A stretch of 64,000 nt of DNA, from assembly GCF_000240165.1 (NCBI RefSeq), contig NC_017586.1, positions 372,001 through 436,000 of the forward strand, in the 5' to 3' direction. Shown piece by piece: positions 28,345 to 32,379 of the stretch (the stretch's first letter is position 1; the number at the start of each line of letters is the position of its first letter). The notes under the pieces were generated by a model. That model was not told where the DNA came from, did no database searches, and saw only the letters and a program-made list of their open reading frames with translations. The position numbers were made by a program, and so were the translations under genes. This DNA comes from Streptantibioticus cattleyicolor NRRL 8057 = DSM 46488 (GTDB lineage: Bacteria > Actinomycetota > Actinomycetes > Streptomycetales > Streptomycetaceae).

Positions 28345-30058
<1,714 letters not shown>

Positions 30059-30066
<8 letters not shown>

Positions 30067-30412
30067 CGCGGTTCCCTCCGGCCGTCGGCGCGTCGGTGGC
30101 GTCCGGGTCGAGGGGGCCGGCGGTCTCGCCGCGCAGTCCGGCGACGATCCGGGCTCCGCTGATCGGCAGCAGTTCGACCTCGACCGGGATGCCCGGCTCG
30201 AAGCGGACGGCGGTGCCGGCCGGTACGGCCAGGCGCAGTCCGCGGGCGGCGGCGCGGTCGAAGTCGAGTCCGGGGTTGGCCTCGGCGAAGTGGTAATGGG
30301 AGCCGACCTGTACGGGGCGGTCGGCGCGGTTGAGCACGGTCAACCGGGTCACGGGCTTGCCGGCGCCCAGCATCACGGGCTCGTCGGCGAAGTGGATCTC
30401 TCCGGGGATCAT
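30059..30412 (-). CDS. ureB: Urease beta subunit
   Basis: Structural subunit of 117 aa. The opening MIPGEI and [40 protein letters not shown] are diagnostic for UreB. It starts 14 bases after ureA and overlaps ureC by eight bases. The last 15 residues ([14 protein letters not shown]) extend past the usual end and are probably unstructured. Confidence 0.97.
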
Positions 30413-30426
30413 CGGACGACGTCCTG

Positions 30427-30729
30427 TCAGGCGATCGGCTGGTGCACGGTGACGAGCTTGGTGCCGTCCGGAAAGGTGGCCTCCACCTGGACGTCCTTGA
30501 GCATCTCGGGGATGCCCTCCATGACCTCGTCGCGGGTGAGCACCTTGCGTCCGGAGGACATCAGCTCGGCGACGGTGTGGCCGTCGCGGGCGCCTTCGAG
30601 GATGTGGGAGGTGATCAGGGCCACCGCCTCGGGGTGGTTGAGCCTCAGTCCGCGGGCCCGGCGCTTTTCGGCCACGTCGGCTGCCACGTGGATCAGAAGG
30701 CGTTCCTGTTCATGCGGCGTCAGTTGCAC
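30427..30729 (-). CDS. ureA: Urease gamma subunit
   Basis: Structural subunit of 100 aa and first gene of the operon ureABCFGD. The start is GTG at 30729 preceded by GAGGTGG. The family opening [36 protein letters not shown], the block [19 protein letters not shown] and the C-terminal [14 protein letters not shown] are intact. The operon promoter must lie in the following 300-base gap. Confidence 0.98.
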
Positions 30730-31028
30730 GCTTCACCACCTCACACGTCATCCCCGACGTGCGGCCCGGCGCGGCCGGGAAGCACGCCCGTTTGATCGAT
30801 CATCGCGCACCGGTGGTCAGAGTGACACGCCTTTGACCAGCCACTATCCAGGATTTTGCAGGGCGATTACATGTCTGGTTCGGCGTCATTTCGCGGGCGT
30901 TAACGAACCGTTCGGCCGGAACGGGCCGGGCGGAAGCGTTTCTTCCGCCCGGCGCCAAGGGGTGTGGCGCGGCCCGGCGGAACCGTTTCCTCCGGCGGAC
31001 CGCCACGCGGCGAACCGTTCCGCCGCAC
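30730..31028. other. Gap between ureA and antitoxin gene
   Basis: About 300 bases with no gene. It contains the palindrome TGATCGATCA near 30793, a strong hairpin (30925-30953) and three copies of GAACCGTT at 30905, 30980 and 31012. The urease promoter should lie in its first half. Confidence 0.5.
30925..30953 (-). terminator. Hairpin terminator after the YefM-like gene
   Basis: A perfect 12-bp stem (30925-30936 with 30942-30953) and 5-base loop, about 75 bases beyond the antitoxin stop codon at 31029. Confidence 0.65.
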
Positions 31029-31337
31029 TCAGGGGCCCGGGTGGCGCCCCGTACCGCCGGACGGGTCGATGTGTTCGGCCGCGATGCCGAAGCGCCCGCG
31101 TTCGCCGGTGGCGGACGCGACCGCGCCCAGCCGGGAGACGGTGGTGATCACCGGCTCCTCCACGGGCTCCGCGGCCTCCTCCGCTTCCTCGAGTCGTCGC
31201 AGGTCGGCGGCGGACACCAGGGCGACCAGCGGCCTGCCGTGCCGGGTGACGACGACTCTCTCCCCGCCGTAGACGACGCGGTTGATCAACTCCGCCAGTT
31301 CCGCGCGGGCTTGTGTCACCGGGACTTCATGGGCCAT
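31029..31337 (-). CDS. Orphan Phd/YefM-family antitoxin
   Basis: Antitoxin-type DNA-binding protein of 102 aa. The N-terminal half is a clear Phd/YefM fold: [47 protein letters not shown]. The C-terminal half, where a toxin would normally bind, is acidic then degenerate. No YoeB, Doc or PIN-like toxin gene is adjacent: downstream lies the urease operon, upstream the divergent ClpP-like gene. Upstream sequence contains TGTACA-centred dyads like the E. coli YefM operator. It may therefore be an orphan repressor controlling itself and the ClpP-like pair. The start has a poorly spaced GGGAG; a leaderless start is possible. Confidence 0.85.
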
Positions 31338-31354
31338 GCTCCCATGATAACCAA

Positions 31355-31380
31355 ATGTACGTCCTGTACATTCTGCACAG
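31355..31380. promoter_or_regulatory. Overlapping TGTACA-type dyads between YefM-like and ClpP-like genes
   Basis: ATGTAC, five bases, GTACAT (31355-31371) overlaps CTGTACATTCTGCACAG (31364-31380), each matching 6 of 8 symmetric pairs. Located in the 74-base gap between divergent starts. Known YefM operators in E. coli are built on TGTACA cores, so this is the likely binding site. Confidence 0.6.
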
Positions 31381-31411: not shown

Positions 31412-32065
31412 ATGCGCCAGCCGTCCGCAGTCCCGCCCGCGCCGACCGCCCGTTACGTGCTGCCGGAGTTCACCGAACGCACCAGCCAGGGCCTGCTGGC
31501 CATGAACCCCTACGGCAAGCTGCTCTCCGAGCGGGTGATCTTCCTCGGCACCCCGGTCGACGACACCGCGGCCAACGACGTGATGGCCCAGCTGGTGCAC
31601 CTCGAATACGCCTCGCCCGACCAGGACATCCAGCTCTACATCAACTCGCCCGGCGGCTCGTTCACGGCGATGACGGCGGTCTACGACACCATGCGGTACA
31701 TCAGCTGCGACATCCAGACGGTCTGCCTCGGCCAGGCCGTCGCCGCGGCGGCGCTGCTGCTGGCGGCGGGCACCCCGGGCAAGCGGCTCGCCCTGCCCGG
31801 CGCCCGGATCGTGCTGGAGCAGCCGGCCATCCCCGAGCCCGTCCAGGGCACCACCGCCGACCTGGAGATCCAGGCCGCCGAGATGGAACGCCGGCGCACC
31901 CGCACCGCCGAGCTGCTGGCCGAGCACACCGGCCGGCCGATCGAGCGGATCCAGGCCGACATCGAGCGCGCCACCGTCCTCGACGGCCCCGGGGCCCGCG
32001 CGTACGGCCTGGTCGACCACCTCACCCGCAGCCGCAAGGCCCCCGCCGCACCCGGCCCGAGGTGA
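31412..32065 (+). CDS. ClpP-family protein lacking the catalytic triad
   Basis: ClpP fold, 217 aa, ATG at 31412 behind GGAGGAG. Family blocks are well kept: [54 protein letters not shown] and [11 protein letters not shown]. But each catalytic residue is gone: the Ser of GQAAS is Ala111 (GQAVAA), the His of MIHQP is Glu136 (VLEQP) and the Asp after the ER(D) position is Ala187 (DIERAT). The conserved structure with a lost active site suggests a regulatory or structural ring subunit rather than decay. It is translationally coupled (GTGA) to a small helical protein gene and divergent from a YefM-like gene. Streptomycetes have several clpP paralogues; active ones are elsewhere. Confidence 0.92.
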
Positions 32066-32379
32066 GCGAGGTGGTCCCCGAACTGCCGCCGCTGCCCGCC
32101 CTCACCCGGGCCGAGGGCGAGGTCATCGACCGCTATCTGGAAGCCGCCGACCTGCTCGGGAAGATCAACCCGGCGCGCACCACGCAGACGTACTCCGCGC
32201 TGCGCGCCGCCCAGGCGCTGGTGGCCCGGGCCACGGAACTGCGGGCCGCGCTCGAGCTGATGTACGAGCGCGGCGAACACGAGCTGCACACCAGGGTGCT
32301 GGCGGAGGCCATGCGCGTCCTCGACGGCGAACGGCGCGCGGGAAGGCCCGCGATCCCTCCGGAGCAGCCGCCGCGGTGA
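32062..32379 (+). CDS. Small helical protein coupled to the ClpP-like gene
   Basis: Unrecognised protein of 105 aa. GTG at 32062 overlaps the ClpP-like stop (GTGA), which argues for stoichiometric production. Residues about 15-90 are predicted helical: [74 protein letters not shown]; the ends are Pro-rich. No metal site, membrane helix or DNA-binding motif is seen. A partner or adaptor of the inactive ClpP-like protein is the simplest idea. Confidence 0.8.

Follow-up and report, generated by a model that had tools for sequence, protein, structure and literature searches.

The stretch of 64,000 nucleotides analysed here, referred to as the window, derives from Streptantibioticus cattleyicolor NRRL 8057 = DSM 46488 (contig NC_017586.1, positions 372,001 to 436,000) and contains a gene for a ClpP-like protein, ClpP5, in which the Ser-His-Asp (S-H-D) triad of active peptidases is absent. 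Among the orthologues of the family this is a recurrent loss, found in about 28 separate clades, and no fixed family trait, and purifying selection on ClpP5 continues after the triad has been lost. The gene is followed by another one coding for a small helical protein, named here sm, and a divergent antitoxin-like gene with an operator-like element appears to belong to the same unit, which would comprise three genes and be larger than the clpP5-sm pair noted initially. The reading put forward, with a probability of roughly 0.45, is that this locus is a regulatory module of the Streptomyces Clp system made up of a ClpP2-type, ClpR-like subunit, the accessory protein sm and YefM-type control. 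The features of the locus are the following:

31029..31337, minus strand: Phd/YefM-family antitoxin-like gene without an adjacent toxin gene (PF02604, E 3.1e-14; TIGR01552, E 8.8e-17)
31356..31379, no strand assigned: operator-like element, three repeats 9 bp apart (TGTACG at 31356, TGTACA at 31365 and TGCACA at 31374)
31412..32065, plus strand: ClpP-like gene (ClpP5), 217 aa, uninterrupted ORF, fifth ClpP of the genome
31742-31744, plus strand: triad site A111, codon GCC
31817-31819, plus strand: triad site E136, codon GAG
31970-31972, plus strand: triad site A187, codon GCC
32062..32379, plus strand: sm, small helical protein gene of an unannotated family, 105 aa; an alternative GTG at 32071 gives 102 aa

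The clpP5 gene of the window

The source genome (8.1 Mb) is the single representative of its genus in the genome set used, and it carries five ClpP genes, two adjacent pairs that are all S-H-D and ClpP5, whose name was given by elimination among the five. The presence of a ClpP domain was revealed by the match to Pfam CLP_protease (PF00574, E 6.9e-61, 205.7 bits with a cut-off of 20.2), and NCBIfam PRK12553 gave 248.9 bits with a cut-off of 228. The best PDB match was ClpP2 of M. tuberculosis (5dzk), a protein whose nucleophile is reported to be Ser110 (PMC9067928). Residues 10-212 of ClpP5 were aligned gap-free with this structure, and A111, E136 and A187 correspond to the Ser, His and Asp sites. 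The ORFs, the domain matches and this alignment confirm the initial annotation, which had described from the letters of the DNA a triad-dead ClpP (Ala111, Glu136, Ala187) followed by a gene for a 105-aa helical protein. An intact triad at shifted positions had been named beforehand as evidence against it; the three sites lie in a gap-free part of the alignment with ClpP2 of M. tuberculosis, and no shifted intact triad was seen. A pseudogene in the window is not favoured, with a clean ORF and a dN/dS of 0.29 in the five-member clade of this protein, a value obtained from 4 pairs only.

Triad variation across ClpP5 orthologues

A census of 394 genomes, drawn evenly from the family, has been carried out. 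A match to sm was found in 247 of them, and the downstream gene is therefore widely conserved; its absence from most relatives, the other objection named in advance, was not observed. Loci were examined in these 247 genomes and in three more that have ClpP5 and no sm match (G238, G309 and G348), which came from nine candidates chosen by match score, making 250 in all. A second weak sm match in G220 (L227) and ClpP2-type genes from genomes without sm (L263-L265) were left out before the census. Taking as full-length a blastp span from query position 40 or less to at least 195, ClpP5 was full-length in 217 genomes (in 214 it precedes and adjoins sm, plus the three mentioned), damaged in 16 and not found beside sm in 17. 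Since both genes are conserved side by side, their pairing is not due to chance.

The complete S-H-D triad was found in 89 of the 217 full-length proteins, at the same positions as the ClpP triad, and the other 128 were altered, all of them without Ser or His and 14 without all three residues. As many as 47 patterns were present, S-H-D and 46 others, the commonest altered ones being SQD (25), SRD (15), AHD (12) and GRD (8). Considering each site separately, Ser was retained in 159 proteins, His in 111 and Asp in 182. An altered triad has been taken as inactive, Thr for Ser (five genomes) being the mildest case. The A/E/A pattern was found in the window genome alone, and with S-H-D intact in 89 proteins and so many patterns, a conserved A/E/A triad, which the initial annotation had suggested testing, is not supported. 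In the 80 named loci, which ranked highest out of 465 in their match to sm and do not constitute a random sample, ClpP5 was S-H-D in 25, altered in 52 and a fragment in 1, with no ClpP in 2; the genera of named loci with sm include Streptomyces, Actinacidiphila and Streptantibioticus.

A ClpP5 tree (quick LG+G4, triad columns excluded, midpoint rooted) contained 28 maximal clades without any S-H-D member, the largest with 50, 15, 12, 9 and 5 proteins, and the state of the His site changed at least 21 times. The clade of the window protein has five members with three genus codes, all of them altered (AEA, SEA, SEV, SDA and GQD). As a control, 30 genomes selected for having an altered ClpP5 were analysed, and S-H-D was present in ClpP1 in 30/30 and in the ClpP2-type gene in 29/30 (59/60 in all), unlike what is found in ClpP5. 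The sole ClpP2-type row that is not S-H-D in this control was an extra ClpP2-like copy (L387, in G351) with the SQD pattern, that is, with Gln at the catalytic His position. This copy is located outside the ClpP5 clade, and triad loss may extend beyond ClpP5.

Selection and fold retention in ClpP5

Values of dN/dS were calculated by the Nei-Gojobori method on non-independent pairs with dS of 0.05-0.5. For ClpP5 they were 0.34 within altered clades (408 pairs) and 0.37 among S-H-D pairs (1093), and for sm they were 0.20 and 0.28, respectively. The initial annotation had proposed a non-proteolytic role kept by selection, and this is supported by the 128 of 217 proteins without Ser or His and by a dN/dS that is not raised after the loss. 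In the control genomes 61 positions do not vary in ClpP1/ClpP2, and at 38 of these the residue is retained in at least 95% of the ClpP5 proteins, with 18 of the 61 kept in 216 or 217 of the 217 proteins. Counted from the bottom of these 61 core positions, His ranks 6th (51%), Ser 8th (73%) and Asp 20th (84%). The residues Q137, beside the His site, and R186, beside the Asp site, are kept in 215/217 and 214/217 proteins, and I43, L62, D68, T85 and A110 are as little kept as the triad or less. Mean site identity was 0.755 in altered ClpP5 and 0.808 in S-H-D copies, and twelve sites that are at least 95% fixed in the latter fall below 85% in the former, three of them being the triad and nine non-triad sites. 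This reduced conservation probably reflects some relaxation. As altered proteins are still conserved at fold positions, with some sites relaxed, catalysis and part of its surroundings are dispensable, and the fold is kept.

ClpP type and docking pocket

The ClpP5 protein of the window shares 57-59% identity with the ClpP2/4-type paralogues of its own genome and 44-45% with the ClpP1/3-like ones. In a tree of 52 rows, ClpP5 constitutes its own clade (33 rows, support 99), with a copy from another family, f18 (L367), outside it. The docking pocket was compared with the ClpP2 type (Ser, Tyr, aromatic) and with the ClpP1 type (Tyr, Tyr, Tyr). At position 74, the Ser of ClpP2 is present in 143/217 ClpP5 proteins and the Tyr of ClpP1 in 1/217; Tyr76 is kept in 214/217, and Phe or Tyr is present at position 96 in 190/217. 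The pocket of the window protein, without Ser74, consists of Gln74, Tyr76 and Tyr96. ClpP5 is thus similar to ClpP2 of Streptomyces and mycobacteria in closest paralogue type, and the pocket pattern, taken over the whole family, would agree with this type.

Clp-ATPases have been reported to dock only through ClpP2 in Streptomyces, where the catalytic Ser of ClpP2 can be mutated and protease activity is not lost (PMC9765437), and normal growth of M. tuberculosis with ClpP2 S110A has been described (PMC9067928), so that this Ser is dispensable in both Streptomyces and mycobacteria. Because ATPases dock via ClpP2 and its Ser can be dispensed with, a ClpP2-like subunit with a dead triad could plausibly function as a partner in the ring. 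When ClpP2 was used as query in the 30 control genomes, 15 of them gave exactly three matches, read as ClpP1, ClpP2 and ClpP5, and ClpP1 and ClpP2 would therefore be the only partners of ClpP5 in these genomes.

The small helical protein sm

The initial annotation had described a GTGA overlap between clpP5 and sm. This overlap is literally present in the window, and coupling is tight with either start, but it is not the usual arrangement of the family. An ATG or GTG start is located 4-14 nt past the clpP stop in 198 of the 214 operons, and a start with the 4-nt overlap is allowed in 31, both options being available in 28 and neither in 13. The GTG at 32071 would give an N-terminus that is common among the orthologues, and it may be the true start of sm.

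In 24 of the 33 genomes with clpP5 broken or gone, an sm ORF of 95-126 aa was found, including a few divergent ones (G266, G067 and G100, with 51-54% identity), and pieces of clpP5 persist ahead of sm in several loci without intact ClpP5. In one of these loci (L375:5951-6247) clpP5 is down to pieces of its beginning and end, and sm is intact behind them. In another family, f17 (L364-L366), sm is present without ClpP and with no antitoxin-like gene found nearby, and in family f18 it appears as partial matches without ClpP at L368 and L369. Since sm persists without an intact ClpP, or without any, it does not need ClpP5. The neighbours of sm in two of the three f17 genomes are different from each other, with histidine kinase and methyltransferase genes in L364, where sm is preceded on its own strand by a gene for a GAF histidine kinase, and LysR and GNAT genes in L366. 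A class-level search for sm gave matches in 39 of 394 genomes, 7 of them outside the family, some weakly.

The AlphaFold2 model of sm contains three helices (16-35, 43-69 and 77-93), with a mean pLDDT of 84 and a pTM of 0.68. With Foldseek no match at E <= 0.001 was obtained, either in PDB or among viral models, and VIA-align gave a top Z of 8.4 to assorted helical hairpins, a level that is common for helical models. The Clp N-domain, ClpS and ClpT were not among the 50 VIA-align rows listed, a result that excludes nothing. Only weak matches, far below curated cut-offs, were obtained in Pfam, NCBIfam, PHROGs, PADLOC and PDB sequences, and sm would represent an unrecognised small-protein family, without match among the families searched.

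The divergent antitoxin-like gene and the operator-like element

No toxin gene was found beside the Phd/YefM-type gene in the window, the next recognised gene on the same strand being ureA, about 300 bp on. Its divergent neighbours are ClpP5 and sm, the latter without a match to any of the toxin families searched. This toxin-less gene immediately precedes ureABC, which has the same orientation (28345-31337, minus strand), and the operator-like element could therefore also affect the urease operon. In 240 long loci holding sm (tblastn E <= 1e-6; a species may appear twice, from two collections), the antitoxin-like gene was found divergent upstream in 217, and ureA, ureB and ureC in 201, 200 and 196, respectively.

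A near-invariant TGTACGTCCTGTACAT element is located between the antitoxin-like gene and clpP5, where 9 bp is by far the commonest spacing of TGTAC repeats. The sequence TGTACGTCCTGTACATT is near invariant between the two starts, with the strict form in 148/217. The pattern TGTACRTNNTGTACAT occurs once in the window genome, at the ClpP5 locus, and was found in 28/40 genomes with sm (12 without the exact element) and in 0/40 without sm; in 27 of the 28 it is carried at the sm locus, and in G043 elsewhere. The 40 genomes without sm, one of which (G059) has a weak sm fragment in a profile search, belong mostly to other genera, so that the association of the element with sm is partly due to shared descent. 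TGTACA cores 12 bp apart have been described as binding sites of YefM-type antitoxins (PMC7730913). The locus resembles the yefM-yoeB system described there in having a Phd/YefM domain and TGTACA repeats, but it differs in the lack of a toxin gene beside it, in the spacing of the repeats (9 bp instead of 12 bp) and in the divergent orientation with respect to the ClpP operon. A defence system was also considered and discarded, with no PADLOC match for ClpP5, sm or the antitoxin-like protein.

The arrangement of antitoxin-like gene, element, ClpP and sm is repeated at two loci away from urease genes (L216 and L370) and in another family (L367), in all three cases with a S-H-D ClpP. In the tree, the ClpPs of L216 and L370 are grouped with ClpP2/ClpP4, and sm is therefore linked to two ClpP lineages. 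In these two loci (L216:4000-6450 and L370:3250-5700) a thioesterase gene is located between the antitoxin-like gene and the pair constituted by the ClpP2/4-type clpP and sm. A phosphopantetheinyl transferase is encoded near the unit of L370, and this neighbourhood suggests a link to a biosynthetic cluster.

Proposed mechanism and alternative explanations

In the proposed regulatory module, ClpP5 would be a ClpP2-type subunit whose retention depends on its fold and on the face that docks Clp-ATPases, and not on catalysis. Like ClpR subunits, it would combine with ClpP1 in a mixed barrel and would there alter which ATPase or substrate the core serves, and sm would bind such ClpP2-type rings as a small accessory protein. 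The toxin-less Phd/YefM-type protein is a predicted repressor that would bind the TGTACA-type repeats between its own gene and clpP5 and would control clpP5-sm. Several observations weigh against this model: sm persists where clpP5 is broken or gone, G238, G309 and G348 carry ClpP5 and no sm match, altered copies show some relaxation, other core positions are conserved no better than the triad, the repeats are 9 bp and not 12 bp apart, the exact element is missing in 12 of 40 genomes with sm, those without sm belong mostly to other genera, and the pocket of the window protein has Gln74. A wider version of this scheme is tentative and rather unlikely. It considers a streptomycete Clp attachment consisting of a loss-prone ClpP2-type subunit, an accessory protein of a new family serving two ClpP lineages or more and an orphan YefM-type repressor, the unit being switched on when this repressor is proteolysed. 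If true, it would constitute a bacterial parallel to plastid ClpR/ClpT, recent enough for its evolution to be watched.

A slow decay of ClpP5 has also been considered, in which selection on a redundant back-up protease is relaxed, the loss of the triad marks an early stage on the way to a pseudogene and sm alone is selected. The 33 of 250 genomes with clpP5 broken or missing, 24 of them keeping an sm ORF (95-126 aa), the loci such as L375 with only clpP5 end pieces ahead of sm, the dN/dS of sm (0.20 and 0.28) below that of ClpP5 (0.34 and 0.37) and the somewhat lower site conservation of altered copies are in agreement with this possibility. Nevertheless, it is judged unlikely, considering that dN/dS is no higher once the triad has been lost (0.34 and 0.37), that the 128 altered copies remain full length and that 18/61 core positions are conserved in all 217 proteins or in all but one. 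In addition, the largest altered clade comprises 50 genomes and extends over about 8.8 synonymous changes per site; on the basis of sm similarity, 8 relatives with a broken or missing clpP5 were placed in it.

It is improbable that the locus is a toxin-antitoxin-like circuit with sm as the effector, the Phd/YefM-type protein as repressor or antidote and ClpP5 as carrier or turnover factor, since sm is without match to toxin families in the libraries searched, the layout is divergent and not co-transcribed, and in L364-L366 sm has no antitoxin-like gene found near. This circuit would explain that the antitoxin-like gene and the element accompany sm at other loci, in another family too, and that L373-L375 keep sm without ClpP5 and with the antitoxin-like gene still divergent upstream. 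A homomeric silent ClpP5 barrel could also act as a decoy or chaperone ring that docks Clp-ATPases, with substrates unfolded and uncut, as might be expected from the conservation of Tyr76 (214/217) and Phe/Tyr96 (190/217) together with the free variation of the catalytic residues. The full triad kept in 89/217 orthologues would be odd for a dedicated decoy, and this is considered the least probable explanation.

Comparison with known Clp systems

The Streptomyces Clp system has been described as among the most complex bacterial ones known (PMC9765437). Its core is a target of ADEP antibiotics, and the locus would contribute two parts to it, a small-protein family not recognised before and a probable regulator. 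Among known proteins, the regulatory module proposed here recalls ClpR of cyanobacteria, plastids and apicoplasts, a triad-less ClpP homologue in a mixed core with active ClpP, and the small ClpT accessory proteins of plastids (PMC7966870). ClpP5 of the window, a ClpP homologue without the triad, resembles ClpR, and the family does so in part (128/217 without Ser or His). However, unlike ClpR, ClpP5 has lost its triad many times inside a single bacterial family, where numerous orthologues are intact. The parallel with ClpR/ClpT is descriptive. The reason why organisms retain ClpP subunits that are proteolytically dead has yet to be settled, and the function of ClpR is considered poorly understood (PMC9067928). 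As live and dead ClpP5 orthologues occur many times in near relatives, the cost and purpose of the loss of catalysis could be tested by natural allele swaps.

A dead Streptomyces ClpP is already in print, in one sentence of PMC9067928 that is the only mention found, where S. coelicolor, among others, is said to have one clpP allele without residues predicted to be critical for activity, likened to ClpR. In the open-access literature searched, no paper was recognised on sm, which has no name to search, or on the antitoxin-like gene beside clpP5, and the recurrence of triad loss, the selection result and the linkage to the antitoxin-like gene and the element were not found. A lone S. cattleya ClpP appears in PMC4989188. 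The protein studied here corresponds to the Streptomyces ClpP5 of the literature in being encoded by a fifth clpP gene beside two clpP pairs, and both have been equated by elimination, not by sequence. The clpP5 gene of S. lividans has been described as monocistronic (PMC9765437), whereas sm follows in 214 of the 217 genomes with full-length ClpP5. Another accessory protein, ClpP_ADEP, acts on the ClpP core, is most like ClpP1 and is linked to the ADEP cluster (PMC12607617); in contrast, ClpP5 is ClpP2-like (57-59% identity, with 44-45% to ClpP1/3-like paralogues).
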